The notes below the pieces were generated by a model, which searched no databases, was not told the origin of the DNA, and saw nothing but the letters and a program-made list of their open reading frames with translations. From positions 1-64,000 of the forward strand of contig NZ_LRMM01000016.1 of the NCBI RefSeq assembly GCF_001647275.1: a stretch of 64,000 nucleotides of DNA, written 5' to 3'. Source of the stretch: Rufibacter ruber. Lineage in GTDB: Bacteria > Bacteroidota > Bacteroidia > Cytophagales > Hymenobacteraceae. The position numbers and the translations under genes are program-made. Of this stretch, positions 1 through 62,738 are shown piece by piece. How positions within the stretch are numbered: position 1 is the first letter of the stretch; each line of letters opens with the position of its first letter.

Positions 1-34
1 CGGCTGTTTTTGGAAAAACAGGCCGAAAACAGAA
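1..34. repeat. CTGTTTT-palindrome family, copy 1 (cut by window edge)
   Basis: The right arm AAAACAGGCCGAAAACAGAA is complete and the left arm is cut by the window start. This is the first member of an intergenic palindrome family seen throughout the window. Confidence 0.8.
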
Positions 35-399
35 TACCTCTCCACCCTCCTGTGCCTTGAAACCGGTAATCTTTAAAAGCAGGCAGTGTCTCTACCCCTC
101 TTTCTTATGTTGCCAATAGTGATTGCCCAATGCAGCTCTGAAACTGCAAATTGTTCCTGCACTCTGTAGAAGCTATTCCAGATGGGTGAACGTTGCGTAA
201 AACGAGGAGCGAACCACTCCACAAAATTACCTAGACAACAAAGCAGAAACCCTTTGTGGCCACCCATTTCTTAAAGCTGGGTTCTGTCATCAACCTGCTC
301 CCTAAGCCACCGTCACCATTCCTGACAGAAACGAACATAGTCTTTGGGTTCCCGTAAGCACCTAGCACATAACTTGTTTAGGCCAAACATGTACCTGCT
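1..399. other. Intergenic region without a recognised gene
   Basis: It holds palindrome copy 1 at its left end. The rest shows no ORF with plausible protein character, no terminator hairpin and no RNA gene that I recognise. A 64-codon minus-strand frame at 73-267 has no signal peptide, motif or start context to support it. Confidence 0.5.
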
Positions 400-954
400 A
401 TGAAAAAGAGTATTACACTGTTTCTGTCACTTGTCGCCTCCTTCACAGCCCTCTGCCAGGATTTTCCGGTGGAAGGGAAAAAGAATCACATTGTCTATAG
501 GGGGAATAAAAGAGATACGGTCAAAATAGACTATGACCTGAAGCCGAAAGTCAAAGAATGGCTCAAAGAAAATAAAGAAAAAGCCCATGGCTTTACCTTT
601 CACCCAGAATCCAACACCTATACCGGCACCTTTCATACTGTGCTTAAATATGTTGATGCACAGGGGGTGGAGCAGCGGTATCCGTTGTATTTCACCATGA
701 ACCTTGCAGTGGTAGAAAGCAGCGTCCTGAAAGAGAGCACCTACAGATATGAGCTCAAAGATTTTCAAGTACTGGGTAAAAAAAGGAAGGCGTTTCCCGC
801 CGAACAGCTTTTGATCAACGGGGAGAATGATAAAAAAGACCAGATACCCGCTGAAAAATTACATGAGATACAGCTACAGGCCACCACTTTTATAGACAAC
901 CTGTTGGAGAGCCTCCACAAGAAGATGCTGGCCAGGGCAATTGCCCAAAATTAG
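400..954 (+). CDS. Secreted hypothetical protein, possibly DUF4468-like
   Basis: This 184-residue protein starts with a clear signal peptide (MKKSITLFLSLVASFTALCQ, cleavage probably after ALC or CQ), so it is exported to the periplasm or beyond. The mature part is charged, with a beta-rich middle (TGTFHTVLKY, YPLYFTMNLAVV, YRYELKDFQV) and a helical C-terminus (ATTFIDNLLESLHKKMLARA). The middle recalls the small secreted TBP-like-fold proteins of Bacteroidota (DUF4468), but this is a resemblance by eye only. No catalytic motif is visible. The gene stands alone on the plus strand; two hairpin terminators lie 260-400 bp downstream. Confidence 0.75.
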   Translation: MKKSITLFLSLVASFTALCQDFPVEGKKNHIVYRGNKRDTVKIDYDLKPKVKEWLKENKEKAHGFTFHPESNTYTGTFHTVLKYVDAQGVEQRYPLYFTMNLAVVESSVLKESTYRYELKDFQVLGKKRKAFPAEQLLINGENDKKDQIPAEKLHEIQLQATTFIDNLLESLHKKMLARAIAQN

Positions 955-1133
955 CAGCCCCACCTCATTGTTTCTTTGCAGTAAATTTATGAAAGGGGAA
1001 CGCTTCTTTTGCATTGGTTATAAATCCCGCCCCCTTGTAGTTCATTTTCTAACCACTGGCAATCAAATTAAACTAGAAGTCATTTCTTAACCACTTCGGT
1101 AGGACTTGCAGCTTTCTACAACACAAATAATGT

Positions 1134-1180
1134 CTTTTGTTTTTGGCCTGTTTTTAGAAAAGCAGGCTAAAAACAGAAAA
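1134..1180. repeat. CTGTTTT-palindrome family, copy 2
   Basis: Left arm TTTTGTTTTTGGCCTGTTTT, right arm AAAGCAGGCTAAAAACAGAA; the stem is slightly imperfect. It lies between two convergent genes, next to two conventional terminators. Confidence 0.85.
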
Positions 1181-1216
1181 AGGCATTGGGTATAAACCAT
1201 TGATGAGACAGCTTCT

Positions 1217-1261
1217 TAACAAGAAGGCCCGGCAGACTACATCTGCCGGGCCTTCTTGTTA
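1217..1261. terminator. Bidirectional hairpin terminator
   Basis: A perfect 20-bp stem (TAACAAGAAGGCCCGGCAGA and its complement) closes a 5-nt loop, with A-rich and T-rich flanks. It sits between convergent genes and can serve the plus-strand secreted protein gene. Confidence 0.8.
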
Positions 1262-1297
1262 GGATAAGTTTTACCTTGGAGCAATTCTAACCCATAG

Positions 1298-1354
1298 ATG
1301 CGTGAACAAAAAAAGGGGTAGGCTATGATATGCCTACCCCTTTTTTGTTCGCAT
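1298..1354. terminator. Bidirectional hairpin terminator
   Basis: A long stem (GGGGTAGGC with CAAAAAAA, paired to GCCTACCCC with TTTTTTG) lies 15 bp past the stop codon of the minus-strand lipoprotein gene. The A-tract/T-tract flanks allow termination in both directions. Confidence 0.85.
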
Positions 1355-1368
1355 AGATTTCAATATCA

Positions 1369-4052: not shown

Positions 4053-4137
4053 CTATTTAGTTCCCCTTGTTGTATATTCTTCACTTGCAGATAGAAACAC
4101 AGGGGAAGGAACTCAGCACCCATACCTTCTCAATATC

Positions 4138-4175
4138 CGTTTTGGGGCTGTTTTCTGAAAAACAGCCCCAAAACG
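4138..4175. repeat. CTGTTTT-palindrome family, copy 3
   Basis: A perfect 17-bp stem, CGTTTTGGGGCTGTTTT, with loop CTGA. The GGGG/CCCC pair replaces the GGCC of other copies on both arms. The repeat ends directly against the stop codon of the receiver gene. Confidence 0.9.
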
Positions 4176-4589
4176 TCAAGCCTGCAGCTCGGCCTGTAAC
4201 TGGCTGGATTGCATTTCCTCTAAGATAAGGGCAATGTCTTCCTGCTTGAGCGGCTTGTGCAGGAGCCGTTGCACCAGCGGGAACTCATTGCATTTTTCCA
4301 GATCAGACTTGGCCAACGATGATGTTAGAATATAGAACCTGCTGGTCTGCGCTAAGACAGGGGTGTACGGCTCTAACGCTTTTAAAAACTCCCACCCGTT
4401 CAAGACCGGCATCTCTAAATCTAAAAATACCAGCATGGGGGCTTTATGCGGAAGGGCCTGCACCACGGCCAGGAACGCCTCTTCTGCAGATCCAAAGGGA
4501 ACCACCTGAGCACCCAGCCCTTCCAGGGATAGTAGTTGTTCTGTCAGAAAAAGACTGATGGGATCATCATCAATTAAAAATGTTTTCAT
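4176..4589 (-). CDS. Single-domain response regulator (receiver only)
   Basis: The 137-residue protein is one receiver domain: acidic pocket IDDDP (about residues 6-10), phospho-acceptor Asp in VFLDLEMP (about 57), the conserved Ser/Thr in ILTSS and Lys in HKPL. There is no DNA-binding or enzymatic output domain. It lies 8 bp behind the kinase gene on the same strand, so the two form an operon, and it probably takes its phosphate from that kinase. Output could be by protein interaction or through a phosphorelay. Confidence 0.9.
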   Translation of the reverse strand: MKTFLIDDDPISLFLTEQLLSLEGLGAQVVPFGSAEEAFLAVVQALPHKAPMLVFLDLEMPVLNGWEFLKALEPYTPVLAQTSRFYILTSSLAKSDLEKCNEFPLVQRLLHKPLKQEDIALILEEMQSSQLQAELQA

Positions 4590-7132: not shown

Positions 7133-7623
7133 AGTACTCCTATTGGTATATTTACAGTTTTCCTGTTTGATTTTTTATAAAATAAATAGTTTTATAAAGA
7201 TAGCTCTGTTATTTATTTAAGTCAATAAACTATTCTATAAATTGAATTTTAACTATACATAATCATATTTTATCCATTTCAAGCACCTCCTATAAACGTT
7301 ATTTTTATTATGTTTAGTAATTGCACTTTAATAATCCTTCTCCATTATCAACCATAATACTGGCTTTAAAAACTACGGCATCAGGAGCCATTTAGGTAAC
7401 TATGTTTATCATAAAAAAAATGAAGTATTACTGTCTTTTAAGGCAGGTAGAAGTAAGAGAAAGATTAGTGGACACTTTATTTGATGAGTTTCCGGTTCTG
7501 TTTTAGGCCTGTTTTCTAAAAAACAGGCCTAAAACAGAATACCCTTAACAGAGACATAAGCGGTTGGCCCACAAGTGACGGGTCTAATTGACAGCGGCTG
7601 TCCCCAAGAACTACAAAGCGTTT
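7133..7623. other. AT-rich intergenic region with a repeat
   Basis: The region holds the start side of the kinase gene and the end side of nhaA. From about 7140 to 7440 it is markedly AT-rich and probably contains the kinase promoter, although no exact TAnnTTTG box was found on the minus strand. Palindrome copy 4 lies at 7496-7539. No coding region is seen. Confidence 0.5.
7496..7539. repeat. CTGTTTT-palindrome family, copy 4 (perfect)
   Basis: A perfect 20-bp stem: left arm TTCTGTTTTAGGCCTGTTTT, loop CTAA, right arm its exact complement. It lies 84 bp beyond the end of nhaA. Confidence 0.95.
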
Positions 7624-8957: not shown

Positions 8958-10562
8958 TTATTTAATTGTTGCCTGCTTTTGCAGAAGCCGTAGCAGTACG
9001 CCGTTAGTCCAGCCAAACCCATCTTGGTTAGGGTACTCTCCCCCACCGCCCTCTTCACCAGCAACCTCCACGTTATATTTCTCGGTTAGTTTACCGGTAC
9101 GCTGGTACACCTGCACATTCTGCTCAACCCAACGCTGGGCAATGGTATTGGCGAGTGGGTGATGCTTGTATGCCCTTAACCCTTGAATGCTCATCCATTG
9201 CAGCGGGGCCCATCCGTTTGGGGCATCCCATTGCTGGCCCGTATGGTTCAAGGTGGTGGCAAGCCCCCCCTGCTGCAGAAATTCATCCTTTAAACGTTGG
9301 GCCACCGCCTCGGCCTGGGCTTTTGTGGCGATGCAGAAAAACAGAGGCGCCACCCCGGCCAGGGTAGCCACGTTTGACGTAGTTTGCTTTTTCAAATCAT
9401 AGTCAAAGAAAAACGCCCCGGCCTCACTCCAGCAGTATTTTAAAATTGCGTTTCTGCGGGCTTCTGCCATACGCCGGTAGTGACGCTCCTCAGACTTGTT
9501 ATCTTGCAAATGGGCCATATCTGCCAGCGTGAGCTCCATGTGGTAGAGTAGGCAGTTTAAATCAACCGGTACCAACTCCGTTGTCCTGATGGTAGCAAGG
9601 CTTTTACCATCTCCAAACCACCTGCTGCTAAAATCCCAGCCAGATTCTGCGGCGGCTCTCAGGTCCCGGTACACCTCCTGCTCGTTTCGGCCGGAGGCGT
9701 GGGCCACCTCTACATCTTCCTTGTAGGCTTCTGGCCTGGGGGAAGGGTCATCATCCCAGTACCGGTTTAGGATGCTCCCGTCTGGCAGCCTGACCACCCT
9801 TCTATGGGCTGGGTTCTCACTGCTCAAACTTTTGGCCCCCTCCATCCAGAAGGCATACTCTTTCAAGAGCACGGGAGCGTAAGACGTTAAAACCTCCCGC
9901 CCTTTTTCCTTCGCCAGAATTCGCAACATCAAAGCAAAGAAGGGCGGTTGAGACCTGCTTACATAGTAACTGCGGTTGCCGTTGGGAATATGCCCAACAG
10001 TATTGATCAGGTAGGCGAAATTATCTACCATGTGCTGGATAAGCGCTACCTCCCCGCTCTCCTGGAGCCCCAGCATGGTAAAGTAGGAGTCCCAATAGTA
10101 GATTTCCCTAAACCTTCCGCCAGGAACCACATAGGGCTTGGGCAACGGAATCAGGGAACTCTGCTCAGGGCTGGGCTGCCGGGTGAGCACGGGCCAAAGG
10201 CTTTTTATATGGTCTGCCACGGGTCTACTGGGGTCTGATTGGAAGTTGGTGGCAAAGGCGGGCGGCATCTCAAAATAGGTCAGCACAAAGCCTTTCAGGT
10301 CAAACCCTGCTTTACTTTTTTCCTGTTCATACGCCTGCAGGATTTTCTCAGGAGGTGCCTTGGGAATACAGTCAGTGAACGTTTTAGAATCTGGAAAGAC
10401 CGGCTGCAGCTGAACTGCCTTAAACAACGGGCCCAACTGCTCATGTGGCCTGTATTGAGCCAAAACCCCTGCTTGCAGGCTGGCCCAAAGCAATACGGGA
10501 AGTATAATTCTAAACAGGAAAAACAGACGGGTAAAAGACGCGGCAGAGACAATGTGCTTCAT
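8958..10562 (-). CDS. treA: Periplasmic alpha,alpha-trehalase (GH37)
   Basis: Hydrolyses trehalose to two glucose molecules. The protein (about 534 residues) has the two trehalase signatures, PGGRFREIYYWDSY (about residues 150-165) and QWDAPNGWAPLQ, and the glycine-rich GEEGGGGEYPNQDGFGWTNG near the C-terminus. A hydrophobic signal segment (LFFLFRIILPVLLWASLQAG) ends before AQYRPHEQLG, so it is exported. The frame is open up to 10694, but I start at the ATG at 10562 (MKHIVSAASF): the 44 codons before it run through palindrome copy 5 and encode no sensible extension. It is followed by nhaA with a gap of about 155 bp. Confidence 0.93.
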   Translation of the reverse strand: MKHIVSAASFTRLFFLFRIILPVLLWASLQAGVLAQYRPHEQLGPLFKAVQLQPVFPDSKTFTDCIPKAPPEKILQAYEQEKSKAGFDLKGFVLTYFEMPPAFATNFQSDPSRPVADHIKSLWPVLTRQPSPEQSSLIPLPKPYVVPGGRFREIYYWDSYFTMLGLQESGEVALIQHMVDNFAYLINTVGHIPNGNRSYYVSRSQPPFFALMLRILAKEKGREVLTSYAPVLLKEYAFWMEGAKSLSSENPAHRRVVRLPDGSILNRYWDDDPSPRPEAYKEDVEVAHASGRNEQEVYRDLRAAAESGWDFSSRWFGDGKSLATIRTTELVPVDLNCLLYHMELTLADMAHLQDNKSEERHYRRMAEARRNAILKYCWSEAGAFFFDYDLKKQTTSNVATLAGVAPLFFCIATKAQAEAVAQRLKDEFLQQGGLATTLNHTGQQWDAPNGWAPLQWMSIQGLRAYKHHPLANTIAQRWVEQNVQVYQRTGKLTEKYNVEVAGEEGGGGEYPNQDGFGWTNGVLLRLLQKQATIK

Positions 10563-10642
10563 GTACTTGAGGTAGTTTGCTCCACTATTGTACGCACAAA
10601 GCCTTCTTTCCGGATATAATCTGGGTATCACGCCAGGCAAAC

Positions 10643-10687
10643 GGGTTCTGTTTTCGGGCTGTTTTGCAAAACAGCAAAACAGAACCC
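10643..10687. repeat. CTGTTTT-palindrome family, copy 5
   Basis: Left arm GGGTTCTGTTTTCGGGCTGT with a right arm ending CAAAACAGAACCC; the outer GGG/CCC pairs extend the stem. It lies between the ktrA end and the trehalase start and creates a false N-terminal extension of the trehalase frame. Confidence 0.88.
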
Positions 10688-10735
10688 GCTCCAAACTTCA
10701 TTATGGCGTAAGATCAGCCTAGCTGAAAAGTGGAA

Positions 10736-13257: not shown

Positions 13258-13695
13258 GCTTTAATATATAACGAAAATAATGGCGCGGGTGGCCAGGGGC
13301 CCGTATTTGTTTTAACTGTACCCTTAACTAAATAGTAATGCACTTTCTGTGCCTCTTTTGAGCCCCATACCTGCATTCTGAAGGTGATCAAAAGTTCTGG
13401 AAGCCCTCTCGTAACGACTTGGGCATTGCTTTACGAGTTTTACTGGACAAGGAATGTCTTTCGTTTTTGGCCTGTTTTTTAAAAAGTAGGCCAAAACAGA
13501 AAAGAAAGCTGGCCTACTCCAGGCTGGTGACAACTTCCAGGCAGCCTTACGGATTTCTATTGCCGCGCAACGCCCAACATGCCCTACTTCTTAGACGTTA
13601 CCCAAAAGGCATTTAGGCAAATGTAGGCAAAGCAGAACATTTTTACCGATTGCCAGTAATTTAAATGCAACCACAGAACCTTAAACCGAAAAACT
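13258..13695. other. Divergent intergenic region with a repeat
   Basis: It separates the minus-strand ktr operon from a plus-strand small gene and so must hold both promoters, though no exact TAnnTTTG box was found. Palindrome copy 6 lies at 13459-13505. No RNA gene or ORF is supported. Confidence 0.5.
13459..13505. repeat. CTGTTTT-palindrome family, copy 6
   Basis: Left arm TTTCGTTTTTGGCCTGTTTT, right arm AAAAGTAGGCCAAAACAGAA. It lies between divergent genes, where a terminator role is unlikely. Confidence 0.85.
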
Positions 13696-14037: not shown

Positions 14038-14083
14038 TTTCTGTTTTAGGGCTATTTTCCTAAAAACAGGCCAAAAACAGAAA
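14038..14083. repeat. CTGTTTT-palindrome family, copy 7
   Basis: Left arm TTTCTGTTTTAGGGCTATTT, right arm AAAACAGGCCAAAAACAGAA; the stem has a few mismatches. It lies between two plus-strand genes. Confidence 0.85.
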
Positions 14084-17470: not shown

Positions 17471-17513
17471 TCCTGTTTTTGGCCTGTTTTCCCAAAAACA
17501 GGCCAGAAACAGA
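17471..17513. repeat. CTGTTTT-palindrome family, copy 8
   Basis: Left arm TCCTGTTTTTGGCCTGTTTT, loop CCC, right arm AAAAACAGGCCAGAAACAGA. It lies beyond the 3' end of the aldehyde dehydrogenase gene. Confidence 0.9.
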
Positions 17514-17837
17514 GCTCCCCCTACCCGTGCAGAACCATAACTCTTCATCTTGCATAAATGGGACAGGTTTTAGTAGTAAGCCTCCTCCCTTATAGCGTAA
17601 GCGGTAAGGAGCAGTAGCATTTGTGCAATCTGGCAAGGGGAGCAGCGCCCTCAGGGGTAGCTCAACTATTTCTTTTATAGGTTCTCCAGCTTTTGGAGGA
17701 GGTAAAACCTGTGTAGACAAACTCATCTTGAGCAGGAATATTCTTAAGAATAATGAAAAGAATCTTCTTTATTGCGCTTTAAATTCAAACAGAAAACAGG
17801 AACAGAGTTCAAGAGAGGTTGTAAAGGGAATGGCCGG

Positions 17838-22559: not shown

Positions 22560-22604
22560 TTCCTGTTTTAGGGCTGTTTTCTGAAAAGTAGCCTAAAAAC
22601 AGAA
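22560..22604. repeat. CTGTTTT-palindrome family, copy 9
   Basis: Left arm TTCCTGTTTTAGGGCTGTTT, right arm AAAGTAGCCTAAAAACAGAA. It starts 5 bp after the subtilase stop codon and runs straight into the terminator palindrome. Confidence 0.85.
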
Positions 22605-22631: not shown

Positions 22632-22651
22632 TTTTTATACAAGTGCGCTAC

Positions 22652-26351: not shown

Positions 26352-26396
26352 AAACAGAAACGGCGCAGCTTTTGGTAGCTGCGCGTTTCTGTTTTT
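26352..26396. terminator. Hairpin terminator behind lipoprotein gene
   Basis: Stem AAACAGAAACGGCGCAGCT against AGCTGCGCGTTTCTGTTT, one bulge, then a T-run. The T-run and the start of palindrome copy 10 coincide. Confidence 0.85.
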
Positions 26397-26430
26397 GGGC
26401 TGTTTTGGCTAAAATAGGCTGGAAACGGAA
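26387..26430. repeat. CTGTTTT-palindrome family, copy 10
   Basis: Left arm TTCTGTTTTTGGGCTGTTTT, right arm AAATAGGCTGGAAACGGAA. The left arm overlaps the terminator tail of the preceding gene. Confidence 0.82.
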
Positions 26431-26940: not shown

Positions 26941-27051
26941 AACTTCCCAAGAAATTTACTGGAGGTACATTGTACTCAAACTTGAGCGTATAGTTCTGGA
27001 ATAACTTAAGCATTAACGCGCAGAAGATTTTCTAAGAAGTGACTCGCTTCC

Positions 27052-27093
27052 CGTTTCCCGCCTCTTTTCCCCAAAACAGCCCGAAAACAGAAA
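27052..27093. repeat. CTGTTTT-palindrome family, copy 11 (degenerate left arm)
   Basis: The right arm AAAACAGCCCGAAAACAGAA is intact; the left arm is decayed (CGTTTCCCGCCTCTTTTCC). It ends 4 bp before the stop codon of the prenyl synthase gene. Confidence 0.7.
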
Positions 27094-28397: not shown

Positions 28398-28440
28398 TTC
28401 TGTTTTTGGCCTGTTTTCAGGAAAACAGGCAAAAACAGAA
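28398..28440. repeat. CTGTTTT-palindrome family, copy 12
   Basis: Left arm TTCTGTTTTTGGCCTGTTTT, loop CAGG, right arm with one base missing. It lies between divergent genes. Confidence 0.9.
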
Positions 28441-28513
28441 AAGTAACCCCTACGGCTCGCGCCGATGCAGCTGCAAAAAAGTACCTCTGCTCATTCGCTT
28501 CAAATGATTGCTT

Positions 28514-29374: not shown

Positions 29375-29854
29375 TCCAACTTTTCCTGTTATTGGGCGGC
29401 AACCTGGGCAACCGCGAAGCCATGCTCTCGGAGGCCGAGGTGCGTTTATCAGGTGTTTTTTGGCAAAACAAGCCAAAAATCGAAACTGTATGAAACGGCC
29501 GCCTGGGGCCTGGAAGACCAACCTGACTTCCTGAACCAAGCCCTAATTTTTGAAACCGATTTGTCTCCGGAGGAAGTCCTGTACGCCACCCAAAAAGTAG
29601 AGCAAGACCTGGGCCGTGAGCGGAAAATCAAATGGGGTGCCCGCGTCATTGACATTGACATCCTCTTCTATGGCCAGGAAATCCTGAACTTACCGCAACT
29701 GCAAATCCCGCATCCGCAGCTGCACTTGAGACGATTTGTCTTAGCGCCGCTGGCAGAGATTGCCCCAACTTGGGAGCACCCGGTTTTGAAAAAGACGGTA
29801 GTTGAGTTACTGAAAGACTGCCCAGATACGCTAGAGGTTAGGTTATTGGAGTAA
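29371..29854 (+). pseudogene. folK: folK with a one-base frameshift in a T-run
   Basis: 6-hydroxymethyl-7,8-dihydropterin pyrophosphokinase (folate synthesis). The first frame reads LFLLLGGNLGNREAMLSEAE and stops at 29491-29493 after 40 codons. The second frame carries the rest of the family: KLYETAAWGLEDQPDFLNQA, GRERKIKWGARVIDIDILFY and IPHPQLHLRRFVLAPLAEI. Removing one T from the T6 run at 29456-29461 joins them as SGVFGKTSQKSKLYET and gives about 160 residues, the usual FolK length. The run is short for efficient slippage, so a mutation or a homopolymer sequencing error is more likely than programmed frameshifting. The gene is essential unless it is duplicated or folate is imported. Confidence 0.88.
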
Positions 29855-30124: not shown

Positions 30125-30168
30125 TTTCTGTTTTCGGCTTGTTTTGGCCAAAACAGGCCGAAAACAGA
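30125..30168. repeat. CTGTTTT-palindrome family, copy 13
   Basis: Left arm TTTCTGTTTTCGGCTTGTTT, right arm AAAACAGGCCGAAAACAGA; the outer CGG/CCG pair is conserved by matching changes in both arms. Confidence 0.9.
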
Positions 30169-30207
30169 CGCAGCAAAAAATCATTAGCACATTAGCTATT
30201 TAGCTTT

Positions 30208-33034: not shown

Positions 33035-33080
33035 TTTTCGTTTTTGACCTATTTTCTGGAAAACAGCCTTAAAACAGGAA
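33035..33080. repeat. CTGTTTT-palindrome family, copy 14
   Basis: Left arm TTTTCGTTTTTGACCTATTT, right arm AAAACAGCCTTAAAACAGGA, partly decayed. It lies between the terminator of the upstream gene and the fabD start. Confidence 0.78.
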
Positions 33081-35942: not shown

Positions 35943-36063
35943 GAAGAATTCGCTAATTGACCATTTTCCACTAGAACAAATCGGGCAGGTAATGGTTACA
36001 AGAAGGTAGGTTTATGGCTATAACGAAATCCCCGTTGCTCTGTTGTAATCTTTATACCCAAAT

Positions 36064-36107
36064 ATTGTTTTCGGCCTATTTTCCTGAAAACACGTCAAAA
36101 ACAGAAA
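36064..36107. repeat. CTGTTTT-palindrome family, copy 15
   Basis: Left arm ATTGTTTTCGGCCTATTTTC, right arm GAAAACACGTCAAAAACAGA; several mismatches. It lies between divergent promoters. Confidence 0.75.
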
Positions 36108-39916: not shown

Positions 39917-39962
39917 TTTCTGTTTTTGGGCTACTTTTCTAAAATCAGCTCAGAAACAGAAA
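39917..39962. repeat. CTGTTTT-palindrome family, copy 16
   Basis: Left arm TTTCTGTTTTTGGGCTACTT, right arm AAATCAGCTCAGAAACAGAA; moderately decayed stem. Confidence 0.8.
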
Positions 39963-40147: not shown

Positions 40148-40193
40148 TCCTATTTTGGGTCTGATTTCCAAAAAGTAACTACATAACAGAAGC
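40148..40193. repeat. CTGTTTT-palindrome family, copy 17 (strongly decayed)
   Basis: TATTTTGGGTCTGATTTCC followed by AAAAAGTAACTACATAACAG keeps the layout but few paired positions. It is best read as an old copy. Confidence 0.45.
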
Positions 40194-41047: not shown

Positions 41048-41092
41048 GTTCTGTTTTGGCCTGTTTTCCTAAAAATAGGTCAAAAACAGAAC
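41048..41092. repeat. CTGTTTT-palindrome family, copy 18
   Basis: Left arm GTTCTGTTTTGGCCTGTTTT, right arm AAATAGGTCAAAAACAGAAC, with GTTC/GAAC outer pairing. Confidence 0.88.
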
Positions 41093-41389: not shown

Positions 41390-41430
41390 AAACAGCCCGG
41401 AAACAGAAGTCTGTTTCCGGGCTGTTTTTT
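41390..41430. terminator. Terminator of the dcw cluster behind ftsZ
   Basis: An 18-bp perfect stem, AAACAGCCCGGAAACAGA, with T-runs on both outer sides. It lies 20 bp beyond the ftsZ stop codon on the minus strand. Confidence 0.88.
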
Positions 41431-41450
41431 GAAAATCAGGGCAAAAACGG
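41412..41450. repeat. CTGTTTT-palindrome family, copy 19 (overlaps terminator)
   Basis: TGTTTCCGGGCTGTTTTTTG followed by AAAATCAGGGCAAAAACGG fits the family; its left arm is also the right arm of the ftsZ terminator. It abuts the ftsZ stop codon. Confidence 0.65.
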
Positions 41451-42971
41451 CTAGTCTACGTTGTCGTGCAGAAAGCGGTTGTCACCAAGTAGTTCATTGT
41501 CATCGTTCAGGTTGAAGCGGGAAATCTGCTGTTCAGCAGACGGGGCCACATTTTCCAGCTGCACGTTTCTACGCAGATATGCAGGTACTTCCAGCTTCTC
41601 TTTGATAGCGGCATCTGTGTTCAGATCTGAGCTAAGGCTGCGTAAACGGGCACGGCGGTCCTGCATCTTGCTCTGCATAGACTCCCGCGGATCTTGCGCC
41701 TGCGGAGCGGCCACCAATTCCTCTTCGGCGTAGGTGGGGGTGAAAATCTCACTACTGGAGTCCAGATCAAAGATGATCTTGCTGGTTTCAGCGGGGGCGG
41801 CAGGCTTTCTTACCGGCTCATTGGCTACCAATTGCGTAGCTGACGCCGGCGGGGTTACAGAATGCGTGGGTACTACCGGCGCAACAGGAGCCACTGCAGG
41901 GGCAGCAGCTATCTCAATTTCAGCCTGTGGCTGAGTTGCGCCAACTCCTGGCTCAACCGAGGCTGCTTTTTTTTCTGGTTGGGGCAGGCTTATCACCTCA
42001 CGGGCAAAGCCTGTGGCTATAACGGTTACTCTTATGCTGGCCCCTAACGTAGTGTCAATACCATGGCCAAAAATCACCTCAGAATCATCACCGGCTTTAT
42101 CCTGGATGTAATCAGTGATTTCGGTTAACTCGTCCATCTCCAGTTCAGCCTGGTCGCCAGACATGATGGAAAGAAGGATTTTCTGCGCACCGTGAATATC
42201 TGTGTTGTTCAAGAGCGGTGAAGACAAAGATTCCTCGGCGGCACGCAGGGCTCTGTTCTCACCTTCTGTGATGGCAGAACCCATCACGGCAGCGCCAGAG
42301 TCTTTCATCACCGTCTTCACGTCTTCAAAGTCAACGTTCACCTCAGAGGTTACCGTAATGATCTCGGCAATACTTTTGGCAGCAGTGGTCAACACGTTGT
42401 CTGCTTTGGCAAACGCCGCCCTAATGGGCAGGTTTCCAAACATTTCACGTAACTTATCATTCAGGATAACAAGGACAGTATCACAGTTCTCGCTGAGTTC
42501 TTTGATACCGTTGTCAGCGGCGGTACGTTTCTTTCTTCCTTCAAAGGCAAAAGGAGCCGTCACAATGCCCACGGTAAGAATGTCCATCTCCTTGGCCACT
42601 TTGGCAATCACCGGGGCGGCACCGGTACCGGTCCCCCCCCCCATTCCGGCGGTGATGAACACCATCTTGGTATGGGCACCCAGCAACTCCCTGATCTCCT
42701 CTTTGCTTTCCAGGGCGGCTTGTTTCCCGCGCTCAGGATTGGCACCGGCCCCCAGCCCTTCGGTCAAGGTAGTTCCTATCTGAAGTTTATTGGGCACGCT
42801 GCTGCTTTTCAACGCCTGTTCATCAGTATTGCAGACCACAAACTCCACGTCCTTAATGCCTTGGTTGAACATGTGGTTCACGGCATTACTTCCCCCTCCG
42901 CCAACACCGATTACTTTGATAATCGATTTGGTGTGCGATGGCACATCAAATTTGTACGATGAAAAACTCAT
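41451..42971 (-). CDS. ftsZ: Cell division protein FtsZ
   Basis: Tubulin-like GTPase that forms the division ring. The 506-residue protein has KVIGVGGGGSNAVNHM at the N-terminus, the GTP-binding signature GMGGGTGTGAAPVIA (about 105-120) and the T7-loop-type NVDFEDVKTVMKDSG. After the globular domain (about 320) comes a long Ala/Pro/Val-rich linker, then a charged tail ending FLHDNVD, which should carry the FtsA-binding peptide. It is the last gene of the dcw cluster, 22 bp after ftsA, and ends at a terminator. Confidence 0.97.
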   Translation of the reverse strand: MSFSSYKFDVPSHTKSIIKVIGVGGGGSNAVNHMFNQGIKDVEFVVCNTDEQALKSSSVPNKLQIGTTLTEGLGAGANPERGKQAALESKEEIRELLGAHTKMVFITAGMGGGTGTGAAPVIAKVAKEMDILTVGIVTAPFAFEGRKKRTAADNGIKELSENCDTVLVILNDKLREMFGNLPIRAAFAKADNVLTTAAKSIAEIITVTSEVNVDFEDVKTVMKDSGAAVMGSAITEGENRALRAAEESLSSPLLNNTDIHGAQKILLSIMSGDQAELEMDELTEITDYIQDKAGDDSEVIFGHGIDTTLGASIRVTVIATGFAREVISLPQPEKKAASVEPGVGATQPQAEIEIAAAPAVAPVAPVVPTHSVTPPASATQLVANEPVRKPAAPAETSKIIFDLDSSSEIFTPTYAEEELVAAPQAQDPRESMQSKMQDRRARLRSLSSDLNTDAAIKEKLEVPAYLRRNVQLENVAPSAEQQISRFNLNDDNELLGDNRFLHDNVD

Positions 42972-45090: not shown

Positions 45091-46486
45091 GGGCCTTCTC
45101 CTCCAGTAGTCGTTTAATATCAGGAACTAAGGTGTCAATGTCACCGGCCCCCACGGTGGCCAGCACGTTAAAGTCCAAATCTTTTGCTAACTCGGCTAGC
45201 ACTGCCTCCTTTTTTAGCAACCGCTTTTTCTCCAGGTTCAACTGATCAAAAAGCAGCTCAGACGTTACGCCGGGCAAAGGTAATTCACGGGCCGGATAAA
45301 TATCAAGTAACCATACTTCATCTGCCAGTTCCAGGCTTCTGGCAAACCCTTCTAAAAAGTCTCTGGTGCGGGTAAAGAGGTGAGGCTGAAAAATGACCCG
45401 AAGCTTCTGTCCCGGATACAAGGCCCTCACTGAACGCAGAAAAGCCTCAATCTCACGGGGGTGGTGTGCATAATCATCTAAATATACACTTTTTCCTATA
45501 GATATCACTTTTTCAAACCGTCTTTTTACGCCCGTATAAGCCGCAACTCCAGACTGAATCTTTTGCTCTGGCACCCCCACCAGCGATACCGCCTGCGCCG
45601 CCGCCAGCGCATTCTCTACATTATGGAAACCGGGTACCTGCAAAGCGGTCTCAGGCAACTGGAAGTTCCGCCCTTCGGCTGAAAATTTCATGGCTCCCTC
45701 CGCTAGCTGCACCTCCCCCGCACGCAGTTCCTCCTTCTCAAGCCCGTAGCGGATCACGGTCACTGACGAAGGCACGGCCTCGGCTATGCTTTGGTCAGCG
45801 GTGTGGTTCAGAATAAGGAAACCGTTTGGTTTGATCTGGCTTACAAACTGCCGGAACGACTCTACCAGCGCCTCTTTCTCCCCATAAATATCCAGGTGGT
45901 CTGGATCTGTGGAAGTAACCACGGCAATGTCAGGGTGCAGGGTCAGGAACGAACGGTCATACTCATCGGCCTCCACCACGCACAGCGCCCGTTCTTCCTC
46001 CGCATGCGGAAGAAGCAAATTAGAACCTACATCTGTAGAAATGCCGCCCAGGAAAGCCGAAGTAGACACGCCTGCATGGTGCAGCAGATGGGCCAGCATG
46101 CTGGAAGTGGTGGTCTTGCCATGCGTTCCGGCCACGGCAATCAGGTATTGGTCAGCGGTTAATAAACCTAAAACTTGGCTACGCTTCTGTATAGTAAATC
46201 CCTCCCGCTCCAGGTATTGCCGCTCCTGATGAGTCACCGGCACGGCCGGGGTCAAGACCACCAGCGTTTCTGACCTGTTTTTCAGAAAAGAGGCCGGAAT
46301 CAGGTTTACGTCATCTTCAAAATGAATCTGCGCGCCTTCTTCGGTTAGCTTCTGGGTGAGTGGCGTGGGCGTTTTGTCATAACCAGCCACGGCAAACCCT
46401 TTGGCCAGGAACCAACGGGCAATCGCGCTCATGCCAATCCCCCCAATGCCCAGGAAGTAGATATGTTTGAACTGGTGCAGGTTCAT
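45077..46486 (-). CDS. murC: UDP-N-acetylmuramate--L-alanine ligase
   Basis: Adds L-Ala to UDP-MurNAc, the first peptide step of peptidoglycan synthesis. The 469-residue Mur ligase has the N-terminal IYFLGIGGIGMSAIARWF, the ATP loop VAGTHGKTTTSSML (about 113), the Mg/substrate part VVEADEYDRSFL, TSTDPDHLDIYG and the third-domain DDYAHHPREIEAFL. It overlaps murG by 4 nt (ATGA) and ftsQ by 14 nt. Confidence 0.97.
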   Translation of the reverse strand: MNLHQFKHIYFLGIGGIGMSAIARWFLAKGFAVAGYDKTPTPLTQKLTEEGAQIHFEDDVNLIPASFLKNRSETLVVLTPAVPVTHQERQYLEREGFTIQKRSQVLGLLTADQYLIAVAGTHGKTTTSSMLAHLLHHAGVSTSAFLGGISTDVGSNLLLPHAEEERALCVVEADEYDRSFLTLHPDIAVVTSTDPDHLDIYGEKEALVESFRQFVSQIKPNGFLILNHTADQSIAEAVPSSVTVIRYGLEKEELRAGEVQLAEGAMKFSAEGRNFQLPETALQVPGFHNVENALAAAQAVSLVGVPEQKIQSGVAAYTGVKRRFEKVISIGKSVYLDDYAHHPREIEAFLRSVRALYPGQKLRVIFQPHLFTRTRDFLEGFARSLELADEVWLLDIYPARELPLPGVTSELLFDQLNLEKKRLLKKEAVLAELAKDLDFNVLATVGAGDIDTLVPDIKRLLEEKAHVME

Positions 46487-48751: not shown

Positions 48752-50091
48752 GCGTCACTTCCTTTCAATGCGGCAACCGCCTCGGCAAAAGAGCGGCCCC
48801 TGTGTTCATAATTCTTAAATAAATCAAAGCTGGCGCAGGCGGGCGAGAGCAATACCACGTCTCCTGCCTCCGCAAAATCTTTAGCTAACTTAACTGCCTC
48901 GTTCACATCTTGCGTCTCTACCAGTTTGGGGCAGATTTGCGAAAAAGAGGCGATAATCTTGCTGTTGTCTACACCCAGGGCCACAATGGCTTTCACCTTT
49001 TCCCGCACCAGCGGAAGCAAGGGCGTATAATCATTCCCCTTGTCGGTGCCGCCCACTACCCACACAATGGGTTTGCGCATGCCGTCCAGCGCGTACCAAA
49101 CCGCCTCCACATTGGTAGCTTTGGAATCATTGATGAATTTCACACCCTCTATCTCACCCACCGGCTGCAATCTATGGTCGGCATTCTGGAATGTTCCCAA
49201 GGCGACCTCAATTTGGGCGGGCTTAATACCTAACAAAAGTGCGGCGCCCACGGCGGCCATAGTGTTGTATTGGTTGTGCTGCCCAATGAGCGGCGAATTC
49301 GCGGTGTCTACTTTTGCCTTGATTTGGGAAAAAGAGGCCAGAATCGCATTCCCATCATATTGAATAGCCAAGCCTTCAGAAGCTTTCAACCCAAAAGGCA
49401 CCTGTGTCCCCGGCACTTCGTGCGAGGTCATGTATTTTTGAATCTCGGCGTCGTTCTGGTTGAACAGGAAATAGTCAGCGGCCGTCATGTTCTGCGCCAG
49501 GCGGAATTTTGCGGCCGCGTAGTTTTCCATTTTGTAGCCGTAGCGGTCTAAATGGTCTGGCGTGATATTGAGCAAAATGCCAATGTCGGCCTTGAACTGG
49601 TACATATTGTCCAGCTGAAAGCTGCTCAGCTCCACCACATAGTAATCATAGGCATCTTCCAAGACTTTCCCGGCCAGACTTTCACCCACGTTTCCGGCTA
49701 AGGCCACTTTCAGCCCTGCGCTTTTCAGCAGGTGGTAAGTTAGCAGCGTAGTAGTGGTTTTTCCGTTGGTGCCCGTGATGCAGATAAACTTAGCATTGGT
49801 ATAGCGGCCCGCGAACTCAATCTCAGAAATCACCGGAATGTTCCGCTCCAGCGCCCCTTGAATCACAGGCGCTTTGTCCGGAATGCCGGGGCTCTTGATG
49901 ATTTCTCCGGCCCCGTAAATCCGCTCCAGTGAATGGGTGCCTTCTTCAAAAGGAATGCCCACCTGGGTCAGCTGTGCCCGGTATTTTTCAGCAATTCCGC
50001 CGAAGTCAGACACAAACACGTCATAGCCTTTGGCTTGTGCCAACAAGGCTGCGCCCACGCCGCTCTCCCCCGCTCCTAGTATGGCTATCAT
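48748..50091 (-). CDS. murD: UDP-N-acetylmuramoylalanine--D-glutamate ligase
   Basis: Adds D-Glu in peptidoglycan precursor synthesis. The 447-residue Mur ligase opens with IAILGAGESGVGAALLA, has the ATP loop ITGTNGKTTTTLLTYHLL (about 108), LNITPDHLDRYGY, INDSKATNVEAVWYAL and WVVGGTDKGNDYTPL. It overlaps ftsW by 4 nt. The space upstream of its start holds the inserted four-helix-bundle element rather than the short junction seen elsewhere in the cluster. Confidence 0.97.
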   Translation of the reverse strand: MIAILGAGESGVGAALLAQAKGYDVFVSDFGGIAEKYRAQLTQVGIPFEEGTHSLERIYGAGEIIKSPGIPDKAPVIQGALERNIPVISEIEFAGRYTNAKFICITGTNGKTTTTLLTYHLLKSAGLKVALAGNVGESLAGKVLEDAYDYYVVELSSFQLDNMYQFKADIGILLNITPDHLDRYGYKMENYAAAKFRLAQNMTAADYFLFNQNDAEIQKYMTSHEVPGTQVPFGLKASEGLAIQYDGNAILASFSQIKAKVDTANSPLIGQHNQYNTMAAVGAALLLGIKPAQIEVALGTFQNADHRLQPVGEIEGVKFINDSKATNVEAVWYALDGMRKPIVWVVGGTDKGNDYTPLLPLVREKVKAIVALGVDNSKIIASFSQICPKLVETQDVNEAVKLAKDFAEAGDVVLLSPACASFDLFKNYEHRGRSFAEAVAALKGSDA

Positions 50092-51839: not shown

Positions 51840-53306
51840 TTACTTCTGCAGCAGCGCAAAGGCCTCCTGCAATACTTGTTTATCATCAAACGGCGATCTT
51901 TCGCCTTTTACTTCCTGGTACGTCTCGTGCCCTTTGCCAGCCACCAGAATAATATCATCGGGTTGGGCTAGCAGGACCGCGGTTTTAATGGCTTCTTTTC
52001 TATCTACCACAGAAAGCGCCTTTTTCAAATCTGCCGCTTTTACGCCTACCTGCATCTGGTTCAGGATTTCCTGCGGGTCTTCGTGGCGGGGGTTGTCTGA
52101 GGTCAGAATCACGCGGTCACTCAGGCGGGCGGCAATGTCGGCCATCACGGGGCGTTTAGCGGCATCGCGGTTTCCGCCGCAGCCCACCACCGTAATCACC
52201 TTCTGCTCCGGCTTTCTGATTTGGGCAATGGTTTGTAGCACATTCTCCAGCGCGTCAGGAGTATGCGCGTAATCCACAATGCCGGTAATCTGGTCAGCGG
52301 CAGACACCACGTAATCAAATCGGCCGGCGGCCGAAGTCAAATTAGAAAGGCTGGCCAGCACTTCCTGCGGGTCTTCGCCCAACAGCACCGCTGAACCGTA
52401 CACCGCCAGAATATTATAAGCGTTGAACGTGCCAATGAGCCTAAACCAAACTTCCTGCCCTTCCAGCTCTAGCTGCAGGCCCTGAATGGAGTTGTCCAGC
52501 AGGCGCGCCTTGAAATCAGCCTCTTTGCGGAGGGCGTACGTTTTTTTATCGGCTTTGGTGTTCTGCAACATGACCATGCTGCGCTTGTCATCTGCGTTCA
52601 CCAGCGCGAAGGCTTTTTTGGTGAGCCCGTCAAAGAACAGCTTCTTGGCCCTGATGTACTCGTCAAAGGTGCCGTGGTAGTCCAGGTGGTCATGGGTGAT
52701 GTTGGTGAACACGGCCCCGGTGAACTGCACGCCCGTGACGCGGTGCTGCACCAGCGCGTGCGAGCTCACTTCCATGAACGCGTGCGTGCAGCCGGCTTTC
52801 ACCATCTGGGCCAGTAGTGCCTGCAACGTAATGGCGTCTGGCGTGGTGTGAGTAGCCGGAATCACCGTTTCGTTTATCTGGTTCTGAACCGTTGACAGCA
52901 AACCGGCATTGTAGCCCAAATCCCGGAACAGCTTGTGCAGCAGCGTGACGCAGGTAGTTTTCCCGTTGGTTCCGGTCACCCCTACCAGTTTCAGTTTTTG
53001 AGACGGATTACCGTAGAACTCAGCGGCTACGTACCCCATGGCCTCGGCGGCGTTGGGCACCACCACAAAGGTCACGTGCTCTGGTGCGTTTTCGGGCTGT
53101 TTTTCGCAAAACACGGCAGAAACGCCCTGGGCCACGGCCGCATCAATATAGTCGTGCCCGTCCCGTACAGTTCCCCTGATCGCAAAAAATGCCACGCCCG
53201 GCCCTGCCTGACGCGAATCCATGGTTAACGCAGAAAGCTCGGGGTTAGTAGGCCCGAGCAATTGCGTTGGCTGGTAAGACTTCAGCAGGTCTTGTAGGTT
53301 TGCCAT
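51840..53306 (-). CDS. murE: UDP-MurNAc-L-Ala-D-Glu:meso-diaminopimelate ligase
   Basis: Adds the third peptide residue in peptidoglycan synthesis. The 488-residue Mur ligase has the N-terminal LTMDSRQAGPGVAFFAIRG, ATP loop GVTGTNGKTTCVTLLHKL (about 110), NITHDHLDYHG with the carbamylated-Lys region, and the motif SDNPRHEDP; DNPR is the signature of meso-diaminopimelate specificity. The start overlaps the end of ftsI by 62 nt in another frame. A segment at 53086-53125 resembles the intergenic palindrome family but encodes CEKQPENAPE, which aligns with the family without a gap. Confidence 0.96.
   Translation of the reverse strand: MANLQDLLKSYQPTQLLGPTNPELSALTMDSRQAGPGVAFFAIRGTVRDGHDYIDAAVAQGVSAVFCEKQPENAPEHVTFVVVPNAAEAMGYVAAEFYGNPSQKLKLVGVTGTNGKTTCVTLLHKLFRDLGYNAGLLSTVQNQINETVIPATHTTPDAITLQALLAQMVKAGCTHAFMEVSSHALVQHRVTGVQFTGAVFTNITHDHLDYHGTFDEYIRAKKLFFDGLTKKAFALVNADDKRSMVMLQNTKADKKTYALRKEADFKARLLDNSIQGLQLELEGQEVWFRLIGTFNAYNILAVYGSAVLLGEDPQEVLASLSNLTSAAGRFDYVVSAADQITGIVDYAHTPDALENVLQTIAQIRKPEQKVITVVGCGGNRDAAKRPVMADIAARLSDRVILTSDNPRHEDPQEILNQMQVGVKAADLKKALSVVDRKEAIKTAVLLAQPDDIILVAGKGHETYQEVKGERSPFDDKQVLQEAFALLQK
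53086..53125. repeat. Palindrome-family look-alike inside murE
   Basis: GCGTTTTCGGGCTGTTTTTC and GCAAAACACGGCAGAAACGC reproduce both arms of the intergenic palindrome inside a coding sequence. The left arm shares 16 consecutive bases with copy 5. Confidence 0.5.
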
Positions 53307-57490: not shown

Positions 57491-57537
57491 CGCTGTTTAT
57501 GAGCCGTTTTTCCCAAAACTCACCCAAAACAGAAACC
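57491..57537. repeat. CTGTTTT-palindrome family, copy 20 (decayed)
   Basis: CGCTGTTTATGAGCCGTTTT and AAAACTCACCCAAAACAGAA keep the outline of the family with several mismatches. Confidence 0.55.
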
Positions 57538-61115: not shown

Positions 61116-61140
61116 ATTTTGTTCTTTACATGCAGGCCCA

Positions 61141-61183
61141 TTGCTGTTTTTGGCCTGATTTTGGCAAAACAGATCAAAAACGC
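61141..61183. repeat. CTGTTTT-palindrome family, copy 21
   Basis: Left arm TTGCTGTTTTTGGCCTGATT, right arm GCAAAACAGATCAAAAACGC. It lies between the decarboxylase homologue and the HMA gene. Confidence 0.78.
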
Positions 61184-61237
61184 ACCTAAGGAAATTTAAC
61201 TTTTAACCCATACCTTTAAACTCTTAACCATCACCAA

Positions 61238-61591
61238 ATGAAAACCTTGAAAACCCTATTGTTCTCGCTGTTGTTGACCGCTATCTCTACCGTAGGCTTC
61301 GCCCAGGGCGGAAAGAAAAACGAGGAGGTGAAATTTAAAACCTCGGCGGTGTGCGGCATGTGCAAAGCCACCATTGAGAAAGGTCTGGCCTATGAGAAAG
61401 GCGTGCAGAAAGCCACCCTTGATGAAAACACCAAAGTGGTAACCATTCAGTTCAACGGCTCCAAAACCGATGCGGCCAAACTGAAGAAAGCTGTGAACGA
61501 CCTGGGCTATGACGCCGATGATTCCCCTGCCACCGCCCGCGCCTATGAGCGCCTGGACGAGTGCTGCAAGAAAGACAAAGGTGCCCACTAA
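61238..61591 (+). CDS. Exported heavy-metal-associated (HMA) domain protein
   Basis: A 117-residue protein with a signal peptide (LLFSLLLTAISTVGFAQ) and a single ferredoxin-like HMA domain. The metal site is CGMC in SAVCGMCKATIEKGL (Cys about 39 and 42), and the fold continues with TLDENTKVVTIQFNG and LKKAVNDLGYDADDSP. The C-terminus adds DECCKKDKGAH with another Cys pair and a His. HMA domains bind Cu(I), Zn or Cd; export to the periplasm suggests metal delivery or sequestration. It follows the receptor/decarboxylase group and ends at its own terminator. Confidence 0.93.
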   Translation: MKTLKTLLFSLLLTAISTVGFAQGGKKNEEVKFKTSAVCGMCKATIEKGLAYEKGVQKATLDENTKVVTIQFNGSKTDAAKLKKAVNDLGYDADDSPATARAYERLDECCKKDKGAH

Positions 61592-61605
61592 ACCTTTTGA
61601 TATTT

Positions 61606-61648
61606 AAAACAGGAAAGCCTGCCCATTTTGGGCAGGCTTTCTTGTTTT
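61606..61648. terminator. Terminator of HMA gene
   Basis: Stem AAAACAGGAAAGCCTGCCC with its complement around ATTTT, followed by TTTT, 15 bp after the stop codon. Confidence 0.9.
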
Positions 61649-61654
61649 CTGCCT

Positions 61655-61698
61655 TTCCTGTTTTTGGGCTGTTTCCAAGAAAACAGCAAAAACAGGAA
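61655..61698. repeat. CTGTTTT-palindrome family, copy 22
   Basis: Left arm TTCCTGTTTTTGGGCTGTTT, right arm AAAACAGCAAAAACAGGAA; the outer TTCCTG/CAGGAA pair is changed in both arms together. It directly follows a conventional terminator. Confidence 0.88.
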
Positions 61699-61811
61699 TT
61701 TGCTTTCTGCCCCGCCTCTTGTTTATCTTTAAAATTTCAACCAACTTACTTTCAACAACTTACCACAACTTATATCTCTATAGCTATTCCAATAACGACA
61801 GGTAGAATATT

Positions 61812-62603
61812 TTGAAAAAGCAAGTATTGAGTCTTATGCTGTTGCTGCTGTTCCCGGCATTCTCTCTGCTGGCGCAGACTGACCAAACGGTGCACGTGGT
61901 CAAATACCTGTACACCGTGCAAGACCCAACCGGCGCGGTGCACACAGAACGAATGCTCTTATTGATTGGCAAAGAAATGAGTGCCTTCAAAAGTTATGAC
62001 AAGTTTGTGCGGGACTCTACCATCTTCGCTAAGCAGAACCTCGCCTTTGACAGCCGCGCCCTCAAACGCGGTACAGATGCCCAGCTCTACAAAATCTACT
62101 ACCAAAACAAAGGCCTTTTTACCCGCACCCTCTTGCACACGTACTTCTGGGAAGAAGACTGGCCGTTCTATGACTGGAACATTTCCCCGGAAACCACCAC
62201 CCTGCAAGGGCTCACCTGTCAGAAAGCCACCACCTACTCCCCCGCCACCAACATGGAATGGACGGTGTGGTTCACCCCAGATGTCCCTTTTTCAGTGGGG
62301 CCGGGCACGCTGCACGGGCTGCCCGGGTTAATTGTCAAAGCCGAAAACAACGAGAAAACCATCACGTATGAACTGCTGAACGTGGCCAGTCCTGCTGCTC
62401 CCTTCCAGACCATTGAGTTCCCGCAGAAAGCGGTCAAGACCACCAAAAGCGAGTATAACAAAATGCTGGAAGCAGCCCGTAAAGACCCGGTGGGGTTCGC
62501 TACCAATTCAGGGGCTTTGAACGGCAATGTCCAGGGGGTAAACATCACGCCTCCCAACCCAGTATCCAAACCGCCCAAAAAAGAAAGGAAATCGGGCAAC
62601 TGA
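61812..62603 (+). CDS. GLPGLI family protein
   Basis: A 263-residue secreted protein of the GLPGLI family, named after the motif seen here in LHGLPGLIVKAENN (about residue 170). The signal peptide (QVLSLMLLLLFPAFSLLAQ) requires the TTG start at 61812, which supplies the basic MKK residues; the next ATG would leave a shortened, uncharged signal. The middle has YTVQDPTGAVHTERMLLLIG and YSPATNMEWTVWFTPDVPFS. The function of the family is unknown; members are often near TonB-dependent receptors and metal-handling genes. The C-terminus is Pro/Lys-rich (NPVSKPPKKERKSGN). Confidence 0.9.
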   Translation: MKKQVLSLMLLLLFPAFSLLAQTDQTVHVVKYLYTVQDPTGAVHTERMLLLIGKEMSAFKSYDKFVRDSTIFAKQNLAFDSRALKRGTDAQLYKIYYQNKGLFTRTLLHTYFWEEDWPFYDWNISPETTTLQGLTCQKATTYSPATNMEWTVWFTPDVPFSVGPGTLHGLPGLIVKAENNEKTITYELLNVASPAAPFQTIEFPQKAVKTTKSEYNKMLEAARKDPVGFATNSGALNGNVQGVNITPPNPVSKPPKKERKSGN

Positions 62604-62692
62604 CACAGGTTTCCGCTTTAGCATCAGGCTGGGGACACGTTCCCGCCATAACGGTTCTGTTTCGGTTTCCTGAAAGCTTGGGGTTTTCCCCG

Positions 62693-62738
62693 TTTGCGTT
62701 TTGGGGCTGTTTTCAGGAAAAGAGGCCCAAAACGCAAA
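62693..62738. repeat. CTGTTTT-palindrome family, copy 23
   Basis: Left arm TTTGCGTTTTGGGGCTGTTT, right arm ending GGCCCAAAACGCAAA. The outer TTTGCG/CGCAAA pair replaces TTCTG/CAGAA in both arms. Confidence 0.88.

Follow-up and report, generated by a model that had tools for sequence, protein, structure and literature searches.

Most known architectural proteins of bacteria recognize DNA that is degenerate or AT-rich, and where and why they bind is therefore hard to read from sequence. Among the published systems compared, the nearest functional parallel to the sites described here is CdbA of Myxococcus xanthus, a ribbon-helix-helix, sequence-specific architectural protein with hundreds of chromosomal sites that are over-represented in intergenic DNA; the cited sections of that report describe a probable tetramer, a direct-repeat consensus and DNA bending (PMC7156744). 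Other dispersed words are known, and what follows on them is limited to the sections cited of each paper. Families of repetitive extragenic palindromes (REP), REPIN and BIME are high-copy, palindromic and mostly extragenic, and some have thousands of units or intragenic members (PMC3733652). The DNA uptake sequences (DUS) of Neisseriaceae occur in thousands of copies with species dialects (PMC3630211), are read by the pilin ComP (PMC3868556, PMC12061091) and have been used, through their distribution, to find integrative elements (PMC7371117). The highly iterated palindrome HIP1 of cyanobacteria is 8 bp long, is tied to methyltransferases and is replaced by an alternate palindrome in some relatives (PMC4390886). 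Here we describe a 44-bp palindromic site from a 64,000-nucleotide (nt) stretch of Rufibacter ruber DNA (assembly GCF_001647275.1, contig NZ_LRMM01000016.1, positions 1 to 64,000; this whole stretch is called the window). Judging from its distribution and conservation, we lean towards reading the sites as duplex-DNA binding sites for one sequence-specific, multimeric, putative architectural protein of Rufibacter.

The family of intergenic palindromes that an earlier note had described in the window is real. A consensus scan found 27 sites with at least 26 of 40 bases matching and none in five Markov shuffles, and a learned profile found 26 sites scoring at least 12, besides a partial site at the left edge (100 shuffles gave a mean of 0.04 and a maximum of 1). 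The first and last copies sit where that note placed them. The profile was trained on 459 kb of R. ruber, in which 227 sites scored at least 12 compared with one in the shuffle; the statistics on the profile, on gene position and on pairing come from these 459 kb, and the profile scan covered 857 kb of the 5.5-Mb genome. Each 44-bp site has two mirrored arms around a spacer, which was 4 bp in 210 of the 227 sites, and each arm holds two GTTT-like half-sites arranged as a direct repeat 11 bp apart, so that a site has four half-sites in total. The core word is GTTT-N5-CT-N2-TTT-N4-AAA-N2-AG-N5-AAAC, with 18 fixed bases across 36 bp. Arm columns conserved at 0.90 or above are GTTT (positions 4-7), C and T (13-14) and TTT (17-19). 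The strongest dyad, GTTT-N17-AAAC, was observed 116 times in 160 kb compared with 5.9 expected and links an outer half-site with the inner one of the opposite arm. The flanks contain one weakly conserved base on each side and nothing further. Bending of the DNA at the sites is plausible because the T and A runs are about one helical turn apart. The 11-bp direct-repeat geometry is PhoB-like, which may be a lead on the reader. Spacers of 3 bp were frequent in the sampled loci of three congeners (G003, with 24 of 72 sites, G014 and G015); those of R. ruber are nearly all 4 bp.

The R. ruber genome has well over a thousand copies, as the earlier note had supposed, and the enrichment extends far beyond the window. 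With at most two mismatches allowed, the core pattern matches this genome 2,124 times and its reversed control once. At the same threshold, 527-2,116 matches were detected in each of 15 congeners (reversed controls, 0-3), a same-genus genome set that we take to be Rufibacter and to which the handles G003-G015 belong. The 21 other Hymenobacteraceae scanned had 0-5 matches (controls, 0-2), and the 22 genomes from other families had 0-9 (controls, 0-6). With at most one mismatch, the pattern was found 190-1,721 times in all 16 Rufibacter and 0-2 times in the 184 others among 200 genomes of the family. The core pattern recovers 357 of the 410 profile sites in the 857 kb of R. ruber. Extrapolation of the profile-site density gives about 2,630 sites genome-wide, and the total is put at about 2,400-2,600. 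MraY of the window shares 91% identity with the Rufibacter glacialis protein, 80-81% with its Pontibacter counterparts and 75-76% with those of Hymenobacter. Dyads as strong as those of R. ruber were absent from 40-kb samples of five other genera and from the homologous Pontibacter and Hymenobacter loci; the same search in 60 kb of Rufibacter G008 did not rank the motif first either. A search for sites in plasmids, phages and viral contigs gave only weak, partial blastn matches in other organisms (best E-values among the matches listed, 0.6 and 3) and no match to the pattern. Among the genomes compared, the motif is restricted to the genus Rufibacter.

Each half of the site keeps its own sequence and the symmetry mostly follows from that. 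Arm-to-arm pairing at most columns was close to what independent columns predict (for example, 187 observed and 189.4 expected, or 194 and 193.2). Pairing was in clear excess at columns 0, 1, 9 and 12 (101 compared with 86.5, 115 with 91.2, 106 with 67.6 and 128 with 105.9) and below expectation at columns 15 and 16. At least 18 of 20 Watson-Crick pairs were present in just 47 of the 227 sites. Covariation was not found above the level of shuffles in a random 60 of the 208 eligible sites (0.168 compared with 0.156, a value reached by 46 of 500 shuffles). Mismatches read in the transcript sense were G-T about as often as A-C (127 and 119 in tandem regions, 65 and 57 in convergent ones). Because column composition predicts nearly all of the arm pairing and G-T mismatches are no commoner than A-C mismatches, it is the sequence and not the pairing that is conserved. 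The earlier claim that pairing is conserved rather than sequence thus fails in general, a few columns excepted.

The sites of the window are given below with their coordinates and, in parentheses, their profile scores; no strand is assigned to any site.

1..34, partial site cut by the window edge, with the inner left half, a 4-nt spacer and the whole right arm (unscored)
1135..1178, convergent intergenic (55.0)
4135..4178, tandem intergenic, overlapping the stop codon of the open reading frame (ORF) 4176-4589 on the minus strand (54.0)
7496..7539, tandem intergenic, perfect symmetry (60.7)
10646..10687, right arm shortened and spacer scored as 2 nt, within the 5' end of a trehalase-family ORF, 8958-10694, of uncertain start (30.8)
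13459..13502, divergent intergenic (43.3)
14039..14082, tandem intergenic (60.2)
17471..17514, intergenic unless the doubtful 98-aa ORF around it is real (58.8)
22561..22604, convergent intergenic, overlapping a GC-rich hairpin at 22594-22637 (52.5)
26387..26430, convergent intergenic, adjoining a terminator-like hairpin at about 26360-26395 (55.4)
27049..27092, tandem intergenic (51.4)
28398..28441, divergent intergenic (48.4)
29440..29484, weak site with a 5-nt spacer, overlapping the start of the ORF at 29453 (28.8)
30126..30169, convergent intergenic (57.3)
33036..33079, tandem intergenic (49.1)
36063..36106, divergent intergenic (47.7)
39918..39961, tandem intergenic (51.1)
40148..40191, weak site in the same intergenic region as 39918 (24.7)
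41048..41091, convergent intergenic (45.8)
41409..41452, at the 3' end of ftsZ; all 14 congeners with a stretch covering this place have a site there (49.1)
46262..46305, within murC; in 14 of 15 species it outscores all but a few synonymous recodings
48919..48962, second, degenerate site within murD, stronger in most congeners; in 14 of 15 species it outscores all but a few recodings (8.0)
49306..49349, within murD; in 15 of 15 species it outscores all but a few synonymous recodings
53084..53127, within murE; in 16 of 16 species it outscores all but a few synonymous recodings
57491..57534, within a 220-aa ORF without a Pfam match (33.5)
61142..61185, tandem intergenic (49.0)
61656..61697, spacer scored as 2 nt, with a terminator-like hairpin (61606-61648) just upstream (32.7)
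62694..62737, tandem intergenic by the crude ORF caller (54.8)

The description of all copies as intergenic applies to most of them, and does not apply to those at 46262, 49306, 53084 and 57491, which lie inside genes; those at 10646 and 17471 are in ORFs whose start or reality is uncertain. Three hairpins near sites (22594-22637, about 26360-26395 and 61606-61648) are GC-rich and have a T-run that merges into or adjoins the outer arm of the site. At 41389-41428, the left arm of the site beside ftsZ can also pair with an inverted copy just upstream, which gives a hairpin ending in TTTT, a possible terminator formed out of the site.

Across the 459 kb, the sites were also mostly intergenic: 185 of 228 lay outside ORFs although 381 kb are coding, as judged by a crude ORF caller (longest ORFs of at least 90 aa) whose in-gene counts include mis-called starts. 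Among 372 intergenic regions of 60-400 bp, eight held two sites and the rest held one or none. Convergent regions of 60-120 bp contained exactly one site in 22 of 24 cases, whereas tandem regions of that length did so in 19 of 74 and divergent ones in 2 of 15; 32 of the 60 divergent regions of at least 200 bp had sites. Distances of up to 80 bp between site and stop codon were found in 125 of 205 cases, and between site and start codon in 53 of 165. The spacing was more even than random, with 33 gaps longer than 4 kb compared with 61.8 expected (minimum of 49 in 300 simulations) and 28 gaps shorter than 200 bp compared with 85.0 expected (minimum of 64).

The rpo region was compared in R. ruber and 10 of the 15 congeners. 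A site at the rpoB/rpoC junction (offset of about 3,897 from the rpoB start) and another just past the ribosomal cluster were present in all 11 genomes, and a weak site near the rpoC end, about 8.5 kb past the rpoB start, in 7 of the 11. The segment with ribosomal-protein genes, SecY and RpoA, which begins about 12.6 kb and ends about 27.9 kb after the start of rpoB, had no site scoring 20 or more in any of the 11. Sites were also absent from two low-GC islands of R. ruber (GC of 0.388 and 0.399; C77:17536-55739 and C79:27913-49833), one with type I restriction genes and the other with polysaccharide genes. The sites could act as a marker of native DNA in searches for acquired DNA.

Four in-gene sites lie between 44 and 58 kb of the window, in murC, murD, murE and the gene without a Pfam match, and among the matches listed the three mur sites are at the same codons in nearly every species. 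The surroundings of the murC and murE sites align without gaps with the orthologues of R. glacialis and ten outgroups, 11 for each gene; beyond these, murE of one metagenome-assembled genome (MAG) has one-residue shifts and one record does not cover murC. For murD, eight orthologues were gap-free (R. glacialis and seven Pontibacter), and two Hymenobacter and the same MAG have extra residues, not fewer. No inserted block of about 15 residues was found at the murC, murD or murE sites relative to Pontibacter, Hymenobacter and other outgroups. These genes therefore carry no sign of an insertion, since the outgroup orthologues align around the sites without lost residues.

Codon choice in the mur genes favors the site. 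At most 10 of 200 synonymous recodings matched the real codons in 16 of 16 species for murE, 15 of 15 for murD, 14 of 15 for murC, 14 of 15 for the second murD site and 11 of 15 for mraY (the stretch of G006 covers just mraY and murE among the genes compared). Across the whole cluster, hits exceeded the mean of 10 recodings in all six species run of the 16: 3 compared with 0 in R. ruber, 5 with 0 in G012, 3 with 0.1 in G004, 4 with 0.5 in G005, 5 with 0.4 in G003 and 6 with 0.2 in G014. Synonymous identity was higher within the site than outside it in murC (0.727 and 0.518), murD (0.736 and 0.573) and murE (0.734 and 0.582). The in-gene copies of the window are further from the consensus than most intergenic copies.

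The word differs between species. CTGTTTT-N4-AAAACAG has 1,063 copies in R. ruber and 3 in G012, and CTCATTT-N4-AAATGAG, in which the inner half is the TCATTT of G012, has 504 copies in G012 and no more than 2 (0-2) in any of the remaining 15 genomes. G004 favors GTTTA, which is found in 0.70 of its arms compared with 0.02 in R. ruber. The in-gene arms follow these dialects. Sites scoring below 10 being omitted, 7 of 10 in-gene arms were in the G012 dialect in G012, compared with 3 of the 130 arms from the remaining 15 genomes, and 3 of 6 in-gene arms carried the letter of G004 in G004. The latter case is only suggestive because the same letter is present in 14 of 134 arms elsewhere. In-gene sites were rewritten in place when the dialect changed, clearly so in G012 and suggestively in G004. 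Such rewriting is not expected from the spread of a new mobile copy and is expected from a shifted reader or a biased drive.

These results bear on several ways in which a palindrome could become so frequent. The earlier note had considered a REP/BIME-like or miniature mobile element, spread by a RAYT or another transposase, and the high copy number, intergenic bias and dyad symmetry agree with it. RAYT-like genes exist as well; R. ruber has three, of about 183 aa, and the densest cluster of sites, seven in about 2 kb (one weak, score 17), is beside one of them (L037:347-2376, contig C100). Moreover, CGTC-type REPs are reported from Bacteroidetes, can be intragenic and need no dedicated transposase, at least in the cited part of that work, so a missing RAYT link alone cannot exclude a REP (PMC3733652). 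REPs, as described in the same source, are stem-loops of 20-40 bp tagged GTAG or CGTC, whereas the Rufibacter sites have no tag enrichment (GTAG at 52 and CGTC at 22 of 409 sites within -8 to +4 of either end, compared with 58 and 28 control stretches) and no general pairing signal. RAYT was rejected as the partner of the sites: it had no match in G006, which has sites, and was present in 40 of 59 genomes, many of them site-free. Unlike REPs, the sites show no insertion at the mur genes, where insertion is refuted, and their positions are conserved at the loci compared. Because the mur sites lack an insertion, their codons beat recodings and the in-gene copies followed the dialects, a REP or miniature transposon is very unlikely. 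Biased mutation, repair or short-patch gene conversion that writes the word, as proposed for HIP1 with methyltransferases, would fit dialects homogenized per species, the existence of alternate HIPs and the excess pairing at a few columns. A 44-bp word of four half-sites is, however, far longer than a methylase site or HIP1 itself, the ribosomal-protein segment is spared and the in-gene copies deviate more, as expected of selection on point mutations under protein constraint, all of which make such writing highly improbable. Self-DNA tags, read in natural transformation or another self/non-self check and spread with their dialects by biased uptake, would give thousands of copies and species dialects, as in Neisseria. 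DUS and uptake signal sequences (USS) also have in-gene copies and even spacing, both of which, together with empty islands, are present in Rufibacter. DUS are short and asymmetric, like USS, and differ in this from a symmetric 44-bp word of four half-sites. A pilus-type uptake machine was rejected as the reader, since PF00437 (T2SSE/PilB-type ATPase) exceeded the family cut-off in none of the 16 Rufibacter (eight had weak matches below it) compared with 13 of 14 control genomes. With the ribosomal-protein segment site-free in all 11 genomes, the tag explanation is distinctly unlikely, though still to be reckoned with.

Explanations that act on transcripts meet other difficulties. A hairpin at mRNA 3' ends, serving stability, processing or termination, would explain sites near stop codons and arms able to pair, but the mismatch and covariation results run against it, as do the sites in coding sequence and divergent regions, and neither a tRNA, a tmRNA nor an Rfam family at gathering score was found in the window (1-64000). 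We consider it highly improbable. As far as the element itself is concerned, the case that the earlier note made against intrinsic termination holds, given the lack of a transcript-sense mismatch bias and the sites within the cell-wall cluster. A protein roadblock bound at the boundaries of transcription units, which would insulate or terminate transcription from both directions, would agree with the single site in nearly every short convergent region and the closeness to stops rather than starts. It is hard to reconcile with the sites that nearly every species has in murC, murD and murE, genes of a tightly packed cluster, and with the sites in long divergent regions; promoter avoidance would yield the same 3'-end preference. 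A terminator detector fired in 77 of 223 shuffled regions and could not distinguish site-bearing regions from shuffled ones. Boundary marking is thus unlikely as the explanation, though worth keeping in mind. The inner core TGTTTT-N4-AAAACA resembles the parS/NBS core TGTTTC-N4-GAAACA. An extra ParB or Noc was rejected as the reader, as the genus has no additional ParB: each of the 16 Rufibacter has one HTH_ParB gene, as do eight of nine other Hymenobacteraceae searched; in the remaining one, G023, a weak second hit was found.

Binding by a nucleoid or topology protein, which the earlier note had also put forward, survives best of the readings it proposed: many dispersed duplex sites are conserved as sequence, and a protein that reads duplex DNA at the sites is strongly indicated. 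The putative reader would be multimeric and may bend DNA, and its architectural role is our proposal. An architectural protein is favored because the sites are scattered at even distances, have kept their positions for long at the loci compared, and are rare close to start codons and in ribosomal genes. The reader, as a tetramer or as a dimer whose subunits have two domains each, would touch some four helix turns and would probably bend or wrap the DNA. About 2,400-2,600 such complexes, usually not more than one per intergenic region and sometimes within genes, would divide the chromosome into steps of about 2 kb and would be kept off start codons, the ribosomal-protein operon and recently acquired islands. 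The main job of this highly specific nucleoid-associated protein would be chromosome architecture.

Several observations weigh against an architectural binding protein. No reader was found among the RAYT, ParB/Noc and PilB-type ATPase candidates examined. The spacing simulation ignores that one intergenic region seldom holds two sites for any reason, and a spacing requirement is unproven because sites deep in genes do not prefer long site-free intervals (mean of 7,066 compared with 7,109 expected, p 0.47). The ribosomal-gene desert could reflect codon and protein constraint rather than transcription. Independent half-sites do not explain the excess pairing at columns 0, 1, 9 and 12. Clean copies are far fewer in G008 (190 at one mismatch). 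The species matrices of the recoding test were trained partly on the tested loci, synonymous identity in mraY is lower within the site (0.485) than outside it (0.562), and even at the other in-gene sites some stretches elsewhere in the gene are equally conserved (site ranks of 7 of 454, 5 and 30 of 432, and 31 of 473). Single sites are dispensable: that of murC is absent from G004, one murD site from G013 and that of mraY from four species including R. ruber, and among the matches listed the 57491 site is at this place in only three congeners (G007, G009 and G012).

CdbA was reported with 569 chromatin immunoprecipitation peaks and moderate specificity, compared with about 2,400-2,600 high-information 44-bp sites that are known from sequence in R. 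ruber; the dialects and codon constraint of Rufibacter have no mention in the cited sections on CdbA (PMC7156744). The length, density, codon constraint and dialects of the Rufibacter sites exceed the known examples compared, and no report of this motif was found in searches of open PMC papers. We know of no comparably long, dense and co-evolving reader-site system in bacteria. Tentatively, and with some doubt, the sites may form a genome-wide punctuation or identity code of about 2,500 long words, with a genus-specific reader of shifting specificity and rewriting by point mutation even in essential cell-wall genes, whose protein sequences would bend to the code. The 44-bp word is a precise bait for finding the reader protein. 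In Rufibacter, a putative binding map can be read straight from the DNA of 16 species, with selection visible inside essential genes, and because the map is readable and the dialect switches are natural, the joint change of a chromosome-wide protein and its thousands of sites would be directly testable.

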